Positions 1,761 through 8,040 of a stretch of DNA of 56,393 nucleotides are shown here, in pieces. This stretch comes from Bacteroidales bacterium. GTDB lineage: Bacteria > Bacteroidota > Bacteroidia > Bacteroidales > GCA-2748055. Position numbers and translations under genes: made by a program. The stretch spans positions 1 through 56,393 of the forward strand of contig JAGLOO010000036.1 of the NCBI GenBank assembly GCA_023138875.1, read 5' to 3'. Positions within the stretch are counted from its first letter, which is position 1. Each line of letters begins with the position of its first letter. Under the pieces are notes generated by a model that did not search any database, was not told the origin of the DNA, and saw only the letters and a list, made by a program, of their open reading frames with translations.

Positions 1761-3074
1761 TTGGAACCGGCGTTTTCAACCATTTTGCTTCAGGCTGTTT
1801 TGATGCCCCTTACAACGGGTACCTTCATTGGCGTCGTTGTGGTGTTCATCCTCCTTTTCTTTTCGGCCATGATCTCCGGATCGGAGGTAGCCTTTTTCAG
1901 CATGGGTCCCCAGCACATCAATGCCATGAAGGAGCATCCGTCCCGCAAAGAACAGCTGGTGTTGAATCACCTGAAAAAACCCGATCGGCTTCTAGCTAAT
2001 ATTCTCATTACCAACAATTTCATTAATGTGGGTATTGTGATCATTGCCTCTTTTGTTACAGGAACACTTTTCAATTTTACCGTCAGTCCTGCGATAGGAT
2101 TCCTGATCCGGGTCATTATTATTACTTTCCTCCTGCTGCTTTTCGGAGAGATCATCCCCAAGGTGTATGCCAACCGGTTCGCACCCAAGTTTGCCAGGAG
2201 GATGGCCATTCCGCTGGTCGTGCTTGACAGGATATTCCAGCCGCTCATTTACATCCTGATCAAATCCACCAGTCTGGTGAACCGCCGCCTGGCTAAAAAA
2301 AGACAGAACATCTCCATGGACGATCTTTCTGAGGCGTTGGACCTGACCACCGGTGTGGTGAAGGATGAAAAGGACATGCTTGAAGGCATTGTAAGGTTCA
2401 GCAACCTGGAGGTATCTGAGATCATGAAACCCAGGACAGATCTGGTAACTGTGGATATCAAGACCGGTCTGAAAACCCTTATTAAGGTGATCATCGATTC
2501 GGGTTTCTCACGGATCCCTGTATTCGAGGAGACCTCCGATCACCTCAAGGGGATCCTCTATGTAAAGGACCTGCTGCCCCACATCAATCAACAGGATCAG
2601 TTCAACTGGCAGAAGCTCATCCGTGAACCTTTCTTTGTACCCGAAACCAAGAAGATCAATGACCTGCTGAAGGAGTTCCAGGAGAAGAAGATCCACCTGG
2701 CCATCGTGGTGGATGAATACGGGGGAACGGAAGGGATCGTAACCATGGAGGATATCCTGGAGGAGGTAGTGGGTGAGATCATCGATGAATCGGATGAGGA
2801 GGAAGTATTTTACAGGAGGATCGATGCCCGGACCACCATTTTTAAAGGCAAGACCCTGCTCAATGATTTTTACAAGGTTACCGAACTGGACGATGAGCTT
2901 TTCGATGATGTGAAGGGAGATGCTGAAACGGTAGCGGGACTGATTCTTGAACTGAAGGGAGGATTCCCGCGGATCAACGACATTATCCAGTGCAAGAACA
3001 TTGAATTTACTATACTGGGTATGGATAAGAGAAGGATCAAAGAGGTCAAGGTGTACCTGACTGAACTGACATAA
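1761..3074 (+). CDS. gldE: Gliding motility-associated CBS/CorC-type membrane protein GldE
   Basis: Inner-membrane protein of the CNNM/HlyC-CorC architecture, known in Flavobacterium as GldE, an accessory to gliding and type IX secretion. An N-terminal DUF21 transmembrane region (about 20-180) has SGSEVAFFS and the conserved ITNNFINVG and FGEIIPK segments. Two CBS domains follow (about 200-330; RIPVFEE, VVDEYGGTEG), then a C-terminal CorC_HlyC transporter-associated domain. The chosen start is a TTG; it gives the N terminus MEPAFSTILLQ, which fits GldE homologues better than the internal ATG at 1803. gldD follows after 31 bases, a pairing known in the phylum. Confidence 0.9.
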   Translation: MEPAFSTILLQAVLMPLTTGTFIGVVVVFILLFFSAMISGSEVAFFSMGPQHINAMKEHPSRKEQLVLNHLKKPDRLLANILITNNFINVGIVIIASFVTGTLFNFTVSPAIGFLIRVIIITFLLLLFGEIIPKVYANRFAPKFARRMAIPLVVLDRIFQPLIYILIKSTSLVNRRLAKKRQNISMDDLSEALDLTTGVVKDEKDMLEGIVRFSNLEVSEIMKPRTDLVTVDIKTGLKTLIKVIIDSGFSRIPVFEETSDHLKGILYVKDLLPHINQQDQFNWQKLIREPFFVPETKKINDLLKEFQEKKIHLAIVVDEYGGTEGIVTMEDILEEVVGEIIDESDEEEVFYRRIDARTTIFKGKTLLNDFYKVTELDDELFDDVKGDAETVAGLILELKGGFPRINDIIQCKNIEFTILGMDKRRIKEVKVYLTELT

Positions 3075-3729: not shown

Positions 3730-4365
3730 GTGGGAGTATTTTTGAAAACAGAAATATTGCCTGATTGCCATCTGGGTGTATGGGAGATTACGGAGGATTT
3801 CGATTCACTGTACAGCATGGTTAACCTGGCCACTGTGGAGAAGACCAAACTCGACAGTTTCAAAAACATCAGCAGGAAGGTGGAGTGGCTTAGTGTAAGG
3901 GCCCTGGTCAAGAACATGCTTGGAAAGGATACCCGGATCCTTTATAATGCTGAGAACAAGCCTTTTGTGAGGGGTAATACACATAACATCAGCATTTCCC
4001 ATTCCAATAACCTGACGGCAGTCCTGATCAGCCAGGACAAAAGGGTGGGTATTGACCTGGAGTATATGTCGGGCAAGATCAGCAAGGTGGCGAATAAATT
4101 CATCAATGATAAGGAGAACCTCACTGCCGATCCTGACAAGCAAAAGTATCACCTCTATCTGCACTGGTGTGCCAAGGAGGCCATGTATAAGATCTGCGAC
4201 AAACAGGATATCAATTTCCGGGACGGGCTCACCATTGCCCCGTTCAGTCCCGACGAACATGGTTTCATGAACGGGCATGTGATCAATGGGAACGGTGAGG
4301 AGGATTTTGAACTGGAATACCTGCAACACGATAACTATGCACTGGTCTGGTGCGTGAAAGAATGA
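3730..4365 (+). CDS. 4'-phosphopantetheinyl transferase superfamily protein
   Basis: Transfers the phosphopantetheine arm of CoA to a carrier protein, giving holo-ACP. The 211-residue protein has the Mg-binding motif VGIDLE (Asp109, Glu111) and the second signature WCAKEAMYK (Glu150, Lys154), diagnostic of the Sfp/AcpT superfamily. The start is GTG, because the next in-frame ATG is about 30 codons in. Its stop overlaps the start of the next gene by 4 bases (ATGA), so the two are translationally coupled. Whether the target is fatty-acid ACP or another carrier cannot be told from the sequence. Confidence 0.85.
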   Translation: MGVFLKTEILPDCHLGVWEITEDFDSLYSMVNLATVEKTKLDSFKNISRKVEWLSVRALVKNMLGKDTRILYNAENKPFVRGNTHNISISHSNNLTAVLISQDKRVGIDLEYMSGKISKVANKFINDKENLTADPDKQKYHLYLHWCAKEAMYKICDKQDINFRDGLTIAPFSPDEHGFMNGHVINGNGEEDFELEYLQHDNYALVWCVKE

Positions 4366-5096
4366 ACAGTTTTTACGAACAACTCCGGGACAAGAGCAGA
4401 AAACGGTTCGCCCTGCTGGTTGACCCGGACAATTACGACGACAAATCCCTGAATGAACTCATCAGGTGCATCAACCAGGATCCGCCCGACCTGTTGTTGG
4501 TGGGAGGCAGTCTCCTTTTTAATCCCATCGATATCACCATTACCGCACTGAAACTGGGCACGCACATCCCGGTCTTTATCTTTCCCGGGAATGTGATGCA
4601 GCTCTCCGACAGGGCTGACGGGATCCTTCTCCTGTCACTGATCTCGGGGCGCAATCCCGAGTTCCTTATTGGCAATCATGTGCTGGCCGCACCCCACCTG
4701 AACCGGTCGGGGCTCGAGATCATACCCACAGGGTACCTGCTCATTGAAAATGGCAAATCCACCTCAGTGGAATACATGAGCACCACCCGTCCCCTCCCCT
4801 TTGGTAAACCGGAAATTGCTGTGGCCACGGCCATGGCCGGAGAGATGCTGGGACTGAAGACCATTTACCTGGAAGCGGGAAGCGGGGCCGTCAAAACAGT
4901 AGGACTGGACATGATCCGGGCCATCCGGAAAAAGATCTCCCTCCCGCTGATCGTGGGCGGAGGCATCACTTCGATCGAAAAAGCCAGGGAAGTTTACCAG
5001 GCAGGCGCCGACATGATCGTCGTAAGCACCGTACTGGAAAAACAACCCGAACTGATCAGGGATTTTTGTGCGCTCAGGGAACAGTTGAACAGGTAA
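4362..5096 (+). CDS. Geranylgeranylglyceryl-phosphate synthase family protein
   Basis: TIM-barrel prenyltransferase of the GGGPS/PcrB family, which joins a polyprenyl diphosphate to sn-glycerol-1-phosphate. Visible family features are LLVDPDNY near the N terminus, LLVGGSLL, the YLEAGSGA segment, and the phosphate-binding loop VGGGI followed by AGADMIVVST at the C terminus. The 244-residue length fits the bacterial group II enzymes. The ATG at 4362 overlaps the upstream stop. The last 244 bases of the locus, including the stop, are repeated at 6081-6324 after an inserted element, so the gene stays intact although an IS landed at its end. The actual prenyl donor is not known. Confidence 0.87.
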   Translation: MNSFYEQLRDKSRKRFALLVDPDNYDDKSLNELIRCINQDPPDLLLVGGSLLFNPIDITITALKLGTHIPVFIFPGNVMQLSDRADGILLLSLISGRNPEFLIGNHVLAAPHLNRSGLEIIPTGYLLIENGKSTSVEYMSTTRPLPFGKPEIAVATAMAGEMLGLKTIYLEAGSGAVKTVGLDMIRAIRKKISLPLIVGGGITSIEKAREVYQAGADMIVVSTVLEKQPELIRDFCALREQLNR

Positions 5097-5099
5097 TCG
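4856..5099 (+). repeat. Direct repeat copy 1 (244 bp), left flank of the IS remnant
   Basis: This segment covers the 3' end of the GGGPS gene plus three bases beyond its stop. It recurs at 6081-6324 with an exact offset of 1225 and one mismatch (t4891 versus c6116, a Val to Ala difference). The bases just outside the repeat differ. Its edge abuts the terminal inverted repeat at 5100, so it is read as a long target-site duplication. Confidence 0.95.
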
Positions 5100-5134
5100 C
5101 CTGTTTTCGTCACCGGGACACCCTGGCCGGTTTT

Positions 5135-5236
5135 TCACAGGATTTTGTCTGGGATTTTGTCCACCAGCTCCTGCTCCTCAGTAAGCCCAATGCTATCCTG
5201 GGTAATAAGGGCTTTAAGAGCTATTAAACGCTCGCT
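5135..5236 (-). pseudogene. Possible C-terminal remnant of the IS transposase
   Basis: A 33-codon open stretch on the minus strand ends in TGA at 5135-5137, about 20 bases inside the left terminal inverted repeat. Its last residues, GLTEEQELVDKIPDKIL, look like an amphipathic protein C terminus. Position and orientation are those expected for the 3' end of the transposase that begins at 5999, but the sequence alone does not prove the family. Confidence 0.35.
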
Positions 5237-5358
5237 TCATTTTTCTATTGATTTGACTGATAATTAACTATTTAGGGTTGGCCTTTCAAAGCCCTACCCA
5301 TGGACTGCTCGAGCACACTATTGCCTGCGGTCGAGAACTTACAAGCTTGGGTCCCTGT

Positions 5359-5467
5359 CCGTAGCAACAGTCCACCGTAGTAGCAGTCTACCGTAGCAAC
5401 AGTCCACAGGGGCGACTCTCAGGGGCGTCTCACCGGTGCGGCTCTCAGGGACAGCACTCAGGGGCGG
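5359..5467 (+). repeat. Two adjoining short tandem repeat arrays (16 bp x3, then 13 bp x4.7)
   Basis: Three 16-bp units (5359-5374, 5375-5390, 5391-5406) are of the form ccgtagcaacagtcca, the first and third identical. They run directly into 13-bp units (5407-5419, 5420-5432, 5433-5445, 5446-5458, then a partial) of the form caggggcgactct with substitutions. The array is GC-rich against the AT-rich DNA to its right. It lies inside the IS remnant and has no visible coding potential. Confidence 0.85.
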
Positions 5468-5554
5468 ATAGGGAGCATCAATTATGATTGGTCGTACTGG
5501 TATATGGTACAGACAGGACTGATGTCGACACTAAGGACAAAAAAATCTGGAATA

Positions 5555-5672
5555 GATATAAATTATCCAGTTATTAACTATTTTGATGTTGATTTGGATA
5601 ATAAATATCTATCGATAGATATATTTTATCCGAAAAGCACCAAATAAGTATAGTAACTGGATAATTTATATC
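5555..5672. repeat. Nested palindrome, 118 bp
   Basis: Perfect 19-bp outer arms (5555-5573 and 5654-5672, gatataaattatccagtta and its reverse complement) enclose a second inverted repeat at 5596-5631 with about 16 of 18 positions paired around a central tcga. The whole could fold into a long two-level hairpin or cruciform. No flanking target duplication was seen. It may be a miniature element or an IS end that landed inside the older IS remnant. Confidence 0.8.
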
Positions 5673-5731
5673 CCTTTTCCATGAGTAGTCAATTGAGTTG
5701 GTGCATTATTAAGCAGTCTTCAAGCAGAAAT

Positions 5732-5839
5732 ATGTTTGGTTTTACATTTCAGGATGTGGCGAGGGAATTTCCGGAGAAGAACCGTGTTCATCTGGCCAGG
5801 ATACTTGCAGACATGTTCGATAAGGGTATGCTAGTATAG
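5732..5839 (+). pseudogene. Short winged-helix-like protein fragment
   Basis: A 35-codon reading frame contains FTFQDVAREFP and LARILADMFDKGML. Its pattern of helix, recognition helix and KGML turn resembles part of a winged-helix domain. It lies inside the IS remnant on the opposite strand to the transposase fragment and has no continuation in frame. The parent family was not recognised, and it is far too short to be a complete domain. Confidence 0.35.
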
Positions 5840-5859
5840 GCTGTTTTGTGCAGGCAGGT

Positions 5860-5999
5860 ATCTCTTCCGGATTAGAAAAGGATCCAGCAGTCTTGGCTAC
5901 ACGATAACAGCCACTGCTGTAAGCAATGATCTGTAAGCTTACCGTCCCGCTCTTGTTCTTTTTCTCCCGGACAAACACGCAAACAAGATAATGGGACAC
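5860..5999 (-). pseudogene. IS1634-family transposase, N-terminal remnant
   Basis: The minus-strand reading frame from 5999 gives about 45 residues with FVREKKNKSGTVSLQII followed by YRVAKTAGSFSNPEEI. This is the pattern of IS1634-family transposase N termini in Bacteroidota (x-VR-x-KKNKSG-x-x-S, then KT-x-G, then S-N-P-E-E-I). After about 5860 the family resemblance is lost although the frame stays open. It starts about 70 bases inside the right terminal inverted repeat, as expected for the element's 5' end. It cannot encode an active transposase because the DDE catalytic core is absent. Confidence 0.7.
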
Positions 6000-6040
6000 C
6001 CGAAAATATCAAAATCGAGAACCTATATCGCAGATTATCT

Positions 6041-6057
6041 ATGACTTAAAAAGTCAT
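6041..6057. repeat. Small hairpin inside the right end of the IS remnant
   Basis: atgactt-aaa-aagtcat has 7-bp perfect arms and a 3-base loop, located between the transposase start and the right terminal inverted repeat. It may form part of the element's end or shield the transposase from outside transcription. Confidence 0.5.
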
Positions 6058-6080
6058 ATGAAAGGAAGTGACGAAAACAG

Positions 6081-6324
6081 GAAGACCATTTACCTGGAAG
6101 CGGGAAGCGGGGCCGCCAAAACAGTAGGACTGGACATGATCCGGGCCATCCGGAAAAAGATCTCCCTCCCGCTGATCGTGGGCGGAGGCATCACTTCGAT
6201 CGAAAAAGCCAGGGAAGTTTACCAGGCAGGCGCCGACATGATCGTCGTAAGCACCGTACTGGAAAAACAACCCGAACTGATCAGGGATTTTTGTGCGCTC
6301 AGGGAACAGTTGAACAGGTAATCG
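6081..6324 (+). repeat. Direct repeat copy 2 (244 bp), right flank of the IS remnant
   Basis: Matches 4856-5099 at 243 of 244 positions. It carries a non-functional copy of the last 79 codons of the GGGPS gene, including the VGGGI and AGADMIVVST segments and the stop. An in-frame ATG at 6058 inside the IS end makes an open frame of 87 codons, but the protein would lack most of the TIM barrel and is best treated as a duplicated gene end. Confidence 0.93.
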
Positions 6325-6345
6325 TTGGCGTTTTCTTGAAGTGAC

Positions 6346-7986
6346 TTACTTCACAAGATCGGGGATCACCTTTCCCGATGCATTTTCAGGCATGGAGATT
6401 TCAAGGAAATAAGCGATTGTGGCAGCAATATCCGTGGGTGAAACCTCGTAGGGAATGGTCACGCGGTTTATCTTCCACCCATAAAAGATCAGCGGTACAT
6501 GCGGACCGAATTTGAATTCGGTAAACCCATTCCTCCCCACACTGCTGTGTTCCACCCAACCGGGAGTCAGGTAGATAATCACATCGCCCGACCGTTTCTG
6601 GTGGTAACTGTTCTGGATCCTTTCATACACCCCGTCGGTGAAGTTGTTGCGCTGCAACACATAGGCCTGAAGTGCATTGGACACACCTCCCATCTGGATC
6701 ATGAACCTTGCTACGCGGTCCTGCACCTCCTCCAGTGAAAGCCTGGAGTCTTCAATGAGCTGGTGGTTCAGATAGATCTGCTGTGCATAATAGAATTTCA
6801 CCCAGTCGCCCTGTCCATAGATGGCATTCAGGTATGATTTCAGGAGCGAAATGCTGCTCCGGTAATTAAAGAATCCTGCGGGGATCCGGCTTTCTGCCAG
6901 GTACCGGGGATCGTCGGCCAGGGCATTTTCGGCCGTAACGTAGACCAGTACATTTTCCAGTCCCAGCTGGTCATCCAGGAATTCCAGCAGATGGGCGATG
7001 TCCTGATCCAGCCGAAGGTAAGTATCCTGCATTTCCACCGACCAGGTACTGTACTTGTCTGCCAGGTACTTGGTGGTATTGAACCCAATGTGGATCATGT
7101 CACTGACACCCCGCTGACCCAGCTCCTCGTTCACGATGGCTGCAATGGCCAGATCCTTGGTAAAGGTATTTCCCCAGGGGGTGGACATGAGTACGCTGTA
7201 ATCGGTTTCTGAACGGTCCCTGGAACTGATCCGGGAAAGCTCATAGGGAAAGGTGATCTGTCCGTTGAATCCGGTCTCATAGGGATTGTTATCAAGCATG
7301 CTCTCGCTGTACTCAGCAATGGGAAGCAAAGGTTCCCAGGTCCTTTCCAGGTAGATGTCCTGGTATTTTTTCTCGTTGAAATCTTTTACCCAGCCGGGGA
7401 GAGAATCCGCATAATAACTGTTGGTGATCCAGGAGGCCGTGGCGGGATCCATCCAGTAGGCGCCCGTGGCTGTATGTCCCGACATGAGGACTGCTGCCTG
7501 TGGGTCCATGGAAACACCGATCGACCGGGACTTAAAGCGGCTGATTACACGCAACTCATCGGCCAGGGTACGGCTGTACAGCAACACAGGGGAATACTGA
7601 CCTGTACCATAGGATCCTTCGATGGTGGTTTGCTCTGCATCATCCAGACTGTAGATGATCTGGTTGGAGAGGCGCTCATACCAGAAATCGGAAACGATCC
7701 CGTGTGCATTGGGTTTGGCACCGGTGGAAATGGAGGCATACCCCACAGATGGTTCGGTGATCAGGTAATTGTACCTGGCATTTTTGCAGTTGGCCCCTGT
7801 GGAAGCCATCTTCCGGAAACCTCCGTCACCGAATTTTTCCCAGTACACAGAAAGATAATCATACCGCATCCCCGAGACGGTGATACCTACTACCAATTTG
7901 GGTTTCTGGGAAGGGATCTTCTGTCCGGAAACCGTGAAGGCACAGGCGATTAGAATCGACATTAAATAAATGGTTCGCAACCTCAT
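6346..7986 (-). CDS. Alkaline phosphatase PafA-like protein with degenerate active site
   Basis: Exported protein with a signal peptide ending near SGQ and the overall PafA/nucleotide-pyrophosphatase fold: HGIVSDFWY, FTKDLAIAA and QDTYLRLDQDI are all recognisable. The catalytic set is largely gone. Numbering from the ATG at 7986, the first metal Asp of the usual VVDQMR is Ser38, the nucleophile Thr aligns with Pro79, the D-x3-H metal pair reads Lys306 and Asp310, and the TADHG pair reads Glu353-Asn354. Only the final His496 (GPHVPL) remains. A TTG precedes the ATG. It is 51 bases downstream of transketolase on the same strand. Likely a binding or scaffolding pseudoenzyme rather than a phosphatase. 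Confidence 0.82.
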   Translation of the reverse strand: MRLRTIYLMSILIACAFTVSGQKIPSQKPKLVVGITVSGMRYDYLSVYWEKFGDGGFRKMASTGANCKNARYNYLITEPSVGYASISTGAKPNAHGIVSDFWYERLSNQIIYSLDDAEQTTIEGSYGTGQYSPVLLYSRTLADELRVISRFKSRSIGVSMDPQAAVLMSGHTATGAYWMDPATASWITNSYYADSLPGWVKDFNEKKYQDIYLERTWEPLLPIAEYSESMLDNNPYETGFNGQITFPYELSRISSRDRSETDYSVLMSTPWGNTFTKDLAIAAIVNEELGQRGVSDMIHIGFNTTKYLADKYSTWSVEMQDTYLRLDQDIAHLLEFLDDQLGLENVLVYVTAENALADDPRYLAESRIPAGFFNYRSSISLLKSYLNAIYGQGDWVKFYYAQQIYLNHQLIEDSRLSLEEVQDRVARFMIQMGGVSNALQAYVLQRNNFTDGVYERIQNSYHQKRSGDVIIYLTPGWVEHSSVGRNGFTEFKFGPHVPLIFYGWKINRVTIPYEVSPTDIAATIAYFLEISMPENASGKVIPDLVK

Positions 7987-8040
7987 CAATTTCGCAACTT
8001 AAATCATCAATAAATGCTCCTGGCTTCCTCAGCAGCGGCT

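Follow-up and report, generated by a model that had tools for sequence, protein, structure and literature searches.

The window analyzed here, a 56,393-nt contig (JAGLOO010000036.1, assembly GCA_023138875.1) from a Bacteroidales bacterium, carries at positions 5100-6081 a 982-bp element lying between two long direct repeats, the left of which contains the 3' end of a gene of the GGGPS family. We conclude, with a probability of about 0.92, that a non-autonomous insertion sequence (IS) derived from the IS1634 family was inserted in trans across the 3' end of this gene, with a 243-bp target duplication produced by staggered joins and fill-in synthesis. Behind this reading stand the observed boundaries and inverted ends of the element, an empty site in relatives, repeats of 7-403 bp at other loci, the family of the sister copies and a local preference for 5'-ARR (R, purine) at the joints, and these support a long-repeat insertion that left the GGGPS gene whole. 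Long duplications of this kind are already known; the ARR joint rule and the bias toward convergent gene ends are new, and a search of the open-licence literature found no report of an ARR rule or of gene sparing for the IS1634 family.

Boundaries of the insertion in the GGGPS-family gene

An earlier note on this DNA described 244-bp direct repeats with one mismatch and an offset of 1225. The repeat was found as described (244 nt, 4856-5099 and 6081-6324, spacing 1225, one mismatch), but 244 bp is not the length of the duplication, because G6081 doubles as the last base of the inverted end; the target duplication proper is 243 bp (4857-5099 and 6082-6324), with T4891/C6116 as its sole mismatch. 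A search of the genome (4.79 Mb, 87 contigs; E ≤ 0.001) with the repeated segment returned just these two places, which excludes chance as the source of the repeat. The features of the region, some of them defined by related copies on other contigs of the genome (C5, C34 and C45), are as follows (ORF, open reading frame).

4350..5096, plus strand: GGGPS/PcrB-family gene, complete (PF01884, 128.9 bits against a cut-off of 23.9; stop codon 5094-5096)
4857..5099, plus strand: left duplication copy, running from inside the gene through its stop codon to 3 bp beyond
5100..6081: non-autonomous IS1634-type element, 982 bp, bounded by the duplication and 14-bp inverted ends; related copies exist
5100..5113, plus strand: left inverted end, CCTGTTTTCGTCAC
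5100..5232: left subterminal part, 98% identical to a copy at the end of contig C34
5681..5839, plus strand: AbiEi-antitoxin-like gene, 5' remnant (87% identity to residues 1-53 of the C45 ORF; one in-frame TAG)
5823..5999, minus strand: N-terminal transposase stub, ~59 residues (C5 copy, 62% identity over 58 aa)
5826..5836: short repeated stretch at the site of an ~860-bp gap (element positions 727-737 match C45 at 564 and 1427)
6068..6081, minus strand: right inverted end
6082..6324, plus strand: right duplication copy, a truncated gene remnant beside the original downstream sequence
6346..7989, minus strand: convergent neighbour, a phosphodiesterase/nucleotide-pyrophosphatase-type gene (PF01663) that adjoins GGGPS in relatives

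The inverted repeat, given as 13-14 bp in the earlier note, is 14 nt long, perfect, and directly abuts the duplication on both sides. Both element ends read CCTGTTTT, with C at position 1 and T at positions 7 and 8, which fits the ends of C-----YT (CnnnnnYT) listed in the IS1634 family table of a review (PMC2266710).

The stop codon of the complete GGGPS gene falls within the left duplication copy, so that, as the earlier note had claimed, the duplication spans the 3' end and stop of the gene, with the whole gene on the left and a truncated copy on the right. This remnant forms an 87-codon ORF (6058-6321) whose first residues come from the right end of the element. Full or near-full copies of the gene, 70-83% identical, are carried by genomes of the same genus. 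At the residue affected by the mismatch, the Ala of the remnant was found in 11 of 18 relatives and the Val of the full gene in 1 of 18; since relatives mostly share the Ala, the single substitution probably occurred in the full-length gene (Val derived) and not in the remnant.

We also ran the empty-site comparison that had been proposed for this locus. A search of 41 genomes (the genome itself and 40 relatives) with the GGGPS gene product yielded 29 relative loci, at 15 of which both GGGPS and the convergent neighbour were present. All 15 of these informative loci had a single copy of GGGPS and no element, with gene ends 5-174 bp apart, and none had two copies. In the window, the right duplication copy adjoins the convergent neighbour, 24 bp away. 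Taken together with the empty site in relatives, this indicates that the element arrived in this lineage and that the left copy completes the gene.

Sister copies, their joints and the origin of the duplication

When the genome was searched for further copies of the terminal inverted repeat, as had been suggested, 17 matches were obtained at ≤1 mismatch, compared with 1 for a reversed-pattern control. The inverted end often lay at a contig end, as expected because assemblers stop at repeats. Outer flanks of 8 left and 9 right ends were compared in all 72 combinations (a match on C7, whose neighbours are unlike either end, was taken as chance and used just among the 9 right flanks). Five flank matches were found at the element boundary, each end being used once, and the duplicated sequences were unrelated from one site to another. 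A slash joins the two contigs of a pair.

Window: 243 bp, 1 mismatch
C34/C45: 220 bp, 3 mismatches
C78/C28: 178 bp, 11 mismatches
C27/C18: 172 bp, 3 mismatches
C46/C59: 403 bp, 23 mismatches (BLAST aligns 400, ending 3 bp short of the left end)

In other genomes of the genus, end flanks were compared within each genome (approximately 205 comparisons), which gave six further pairs, all of a left-type with a right-type end, with duplications of 22, 17, 75, 65, 55, and 71 bp (1, 1, 5, 1, 5, and 0 mismatches, respectively), the 22-bp duplication flanking one contiguous element of 1531 bp. GTDB genomes were scanned with a C5 transposase piece. Among the 39 loci found, both ends could be placed in 26, and 12 of these had duplications (7, 8, 22, 33, 40, 44, 47, 55, 70, 83, 178, and 220 bp). 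The total is 23 duplications of 7-403 bp, i.e., 5 in this genome, 6 in the genus, and 12 elsewhere, and the repeats at L124, L127, L145, and G017 have no mismatches. L124, from a Paludibacter metagenome-assembled genome, has in addition a 53-bp repeat (2976-3028 and 6399-6451; inverted ends CCTGACTTCCGCG) that encloses a 1645-bp element together with its own 70-bp repeat, apparently an element inside an element.

The sister transposases are assigned to the IS1634 family by sequence, two pieces from the C5 copy scoring 179.9 and 145.9 bits with NF033559, the NCBIfam model of that family (cut-off 100). The IS1634-like N terminus reported to point inward from the right end of the window element was recovered as the short minus-strand stub, which resembles this C5 transposase. 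A complete DDE transposase gene is not present in the element, which has just these ~59 N-terminal residues. Its length falls outside the 1500-2000 bp of the IS1634 family (relatives with both ends placed measure 1531-1713 bp, save L161 at 1158 bp), and its 243-bp repeat breaks the family rule of 5-6 bp, as do the repeats of 7-403 bp in relatives that have one. With intact ends, no functional transposase, and an interior common to more than one copy, it has the features of a non-autonomous IS. Indeed, the C34/C45 copy has the same order of parts (stub, AbiEi-like gene, left end), found in part in C55 as well. Since this order is shared by two separately inserted copies, the derivative would have moved after losing its transposase; the window element was most likely already non-autonomous when it moved, and it probably moved in trans. 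Movement of an already defective element would account for near-identical repeats around a broken interior, and neither gene conversion, which the earlier note had offered, nor fast decay is needed.

The target sequence, read outward from either element end, begins 5'-ARR. Position one was A at 63 of 86 ends (28% expected), and a purine triplet was present at 55 of 86 ends, where the base composition six positions farther outward predicts 9.7 (left ends, 29/44; right ends, 26/42). These 86 ends comprise 22 paired and 26 single ends from the genus, 16 distant ends with a repeat, and 22 distant ends without a detected repeat. ARR was first noticed on earlier rows and the last 22 ends came in later; 17 of these 22 have the triplet. 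The 47 end-like matches in the genus divide into 12 in pairs, 20 used as single ends, and 15 excluded from the count (two-mismatch matches, matches with subterminal sequence of neither the left nor the right type, and two of the three G015 ends, which have near-identical flanks); C7, one of the 17 own-genome matches, L158, and L161 were also left out, and four actinobacterial elements (L152-L155, eight ends) were tallied apart. RRR occurred in both repeat copies at 19 of 34 duplication-bearing ends, as counted with older boundaries that are one base off in several distant elements, and since the second copy also has it, the triplet is host-derived. In the window, the right end follows ARR (AAG) and the left end does not (CGA).

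These observations can be assembled into the following scheme. A related transposase, acting in trans, would insert the non-autonomous derivative across the GGGPS 3' end, one element end being joined to one strand inside the gene (4856/4857) and the other to the opposite strand at a point 243 bp downstream, 3 bp beyond the stop codon (5099/5100). Strand-displacement fill-in between the staggered joins would copy the intervening 243 bp, giving a whole gene on the left side and a useless 3' remnant on the right, and the spacing would be free because the two ends are joined independently. Independent joining is suggested by the preference itself, as it is tied to each joint and indifferent to spacings of 7-403 bp. 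We therefore propose tentatively, and at somewhat less than even odds, that in a long-repeat branch of the IS1634 family each end is joined at its own 5'-ARR site, that the stagger is unconstrained, and that fill-in makes in-gene insertions gene-sparing; reversed staggers would perhaps give deletions and the copies without duplication. If this is true, such an element can use gene ends, chiefly between convergent genes, where a short duplication would break a gene. The model is testable, since a preference local to each joint and without regard to distance is expected of independent joining and not of a transpososome of fixed stagger. Gene remnants beside such elements should not be taken for pseudogenes of lost genes, the whole gene lying on the other side.

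Several observations weigh against insertion of a long-repeat IS1634-type derivative. Adjacency was inferred across different contigs for four of the five own-genome duplications and for five of the six in the genus. The C5 copy has both ends and no duplication, and the C24, C56, C80, and C55 ends had no partner among the 72 flank comparisons. Outside the genus, 12 of the 26 placed relatives were without duplication and 2 were cut by a contig end; flanks exceeded 500 bp on both sides in just 5 of these 12, one of them with runs of N, and owing to such limited flanks 12 is an upper bound for true absence of duplication. The purine triplet was found at none of the eight actinobacterial ends. The window stub alone matched no transposase model in Pfam or NCBIfam, other members of the IS1634 family have short repeats of 5-6 bp in print (PMC2266710, PMC3281130, PMC8024623), and the assembled genome yielded no intact close transposase that could serve as a helper, as the C5 copy is broken and C56 is in fragments. 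Contigs C18, C59, and C80 start 23-25 bp inside the right end with identical sequence. A high-copy element is probably missing (collapsed) from the assembly.

Other routes to the same structure were also considered. Two insertions in one gene end, followed by crossing-over between them, would leave one element flanked by the intervening stretch, and unequal recombination of this kind could also account for elements without duplication. However, it demands two nearby insertions in the same orientation at each of the 23 duplicated loci, no locus was seen with both insertions, and several repeats are identical, as noted above; we regard it as very unlikely. Nor does a tandem duplication of the gene 3' end, entered later by the element exactly at its junction, fare better: although tandem duplications are common, at independent loci of unrelated sequence the edges of the repeats fall at the ends of the element, and a tandem duplicate was found at 0 of the 15 informative relative loci, which leaves this order of events with a negligible probability.

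Site-specific integrative elements restore their target gene at tRNA and protein genes, and one that entered gene 3' ends by site-specific recombination, bringing its own copy of the gene end, would leave GGGPS restored as it is here. There is, however, no integrase ORF in 5100-6081, the same segment is already present at the empty site, and the unrelated duplicated sequences offer no attachment sequence common to the sites. An Rfam search of 4800-6500 gave no match up to E = 1 and a tRNA scan of the window found none, which leaves no tRNA-type attachment site. Given also the DDE-family ends and the transposase stub, we consider such integration extremely improbable.

Placement at gene ends

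Gene sparing was tested with a hexamer-based gene caller against a background of 449 kb of the same genome (370 genes; 49 of 349 junctions convergent). No called gene was broken by any of the 11 insertions in the genus, although just 2.8 of them would be expected to spare all genes (tail 1.5e-7). Eight of the 11 touched a convergent junction, where 0.25 were expected, or 0.93 given sparing (tail 3e-7). Since the same 11 insertions both suggested the convergent pattern and served to test it, the unpaired ends were used as a separate check. Of 25 uncut ends there, 19 had the nearest gene facing the element with its 3' end (P = 0.015 for a null of one half); the corresponding left-side and right-side figures for background intergenic bases were 25% and 53%, respectively.

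In 6 of the 11 insertions (the window, C34/C45, C27/C18, C46/C59, G003c, and G017), at least one joint lay inside a coding sequence kept whole by the duplication; the 154-codon ORF at C46/C59 is weak, with no Pfam match. At C27/C18, the 172-bp duplication keeps two genes whole, a PemK/MazF-like gene (L093:344-706, minus strand; PF02452, 90.1 bits) and, convergent with it, a sulfatase gene. The hexamer caller overlooked the PemK-like gene, which appears in a plain ORF list searched with Pfam. The chance that a random insertion into the 449 kb leaves all called genes intact is 14% for a duplication of 5 bp, 34% for one of 243 bp, and 47% for one of 403 bp, and this rise provides a numerical reason why long repeats could be favoured. 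Of 10 insertions outside the genus, 4 were flagged within an ORF (L141, L144, L152, and a doubtful 92-codon ORF in L158), which weakens the case for gene sparing across the family; selection and target choice are not separated here.

Placement at convergent ends could conceivably reflect target choice, e.g., of supercoiled DNA between convergent genes, and not the survival of harmless insertions. The excess of convergent junctions persists when gene-sparing sites alone are considered (8 of 11 against 0.93), and the unpaired ends, a separate set, lean the same way. Selection against splitting promoters or operons would nevertheless yield the same bias, the pattern was noticed on the very sites tested, some insertions outside the genus enter ORFs, and a hairpin signal is absent at the joins, so that we would sooner doubt than accept target choice as the explanation.

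Terminator targeting was tried as the main cause and rejected. RNA folding of the 50 nt leading into each of 48 joins did not differ from that of 1500 random stretches (P = 0.30), with means of -8.9 and -8.0, respectively, and 10% and 4% of values below -15.

Known systems and the element interior

Direct repeats in the IS1634 family are given as 5-6 bp in the review cited above, with IS1634 and IS1549 as exceptions at 8-514 bp (PMC2266710), which agrees with the long, variable duplications that the earlier note had ascribed to these two elements; according to the review, no mechanistic model had been put forward for such repeats. IS1634 of Mycoplasma mycoides and IS1549 of Mycobacterium smegmatis thus share both family and long variable repeats with the sister copies (PMC2266710). 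The window element differs from them in having no transposase body, in its AbiEi-like remnant, and in its length of 982 bp. Other elements placed in the IS1634 family by their authors' naming have short repeats, i.e., 6 bp in ISPfe2 of Paracoccus, which has 13-bp inverted ends (PMC3281130), and 6 bp in ISGka5 of Geobacillus (PMC8024623). IS1634-1 of Acidiphilium, likewise so named, has a six-base sequence per copy, which the figure legend calls inverted repeats (PMC4549789). Long repeats mark only part of the family. The transposase of IS1634-1 binds the replication sliding clamp (PMC4549789), and such binding would, in our view, suit repair by long synthesis.

IS that target repetitive extragenic palindromic (REP) sequences (IS1397, ISKpn1, and others) also occupy extragenic space between convergent genes, a placement argued to spare genes and regulation (PMC1525189). 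Their target is palindromic (PMC1525189), whereas no hairpin signal was found at the 48 joins examined here, and in the present elements it is not placement alone that spares genes but also duplication.

The middle of the window element matches contigs C45, C61, and C55, and its right part holds the transposase stub. The corresponding part of C45 forms an intact ORF of 274 codons (L044:408-1232) between IS1634-type ends. This ORF scored 23.3 bits with PF09407 (cut-off 22.2) and 24.8 bits with NF047376 (cut-off 150); its likeness to AbiEi antitoxins of type IV toxin-antitoxin systems is thus just over the Pfam cut-off and far below that of NCBIfam, and its position between IS1634-type ends sets it apart from AbiEi systems. 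No AbiEii partner came to light in the pieces read, although no dedicated search was made. About 860 bp of the C34/C45 copy, between two copies of the short stretch listed above, is missing from the window element, which is why the window retains just 53 AbiEi-like residues. AbiEi-like pieces also adjoin an IS1634-type end in four genomes of the genus, one end each (two mismatches in the ends of G012 and G003, none in G005 and G016). Judged from this arrangement, the AbiEi-like gene is a passenger of an IS1634-type derivative, and this is a further new part of our findings.

On contig C61 (78000-80840, L045), the AbiEi-like segment has no recognizable element ends. There, an AbiEi-like fragment of 100 codons extends over the 3' end of a gene for an amino-acid permease (PF13520), and a reading frame of 78 codons runs off the contig end. 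At the left end of the element, an ORF designated X has disrupted frames in most copies. A 118-bp near-palindrome (5555-5672) lies upstream of the AbiEi-like start, with 22-nt arms that are 95% complementary and a second inverted pair nested inside; it is also present in C45 and C61 and resembles a small palindromic repeat sitting within the element. At 5359-5469 there are tandem units of 16 and 13 bp, and the number of related units, by eye, differs among copies.

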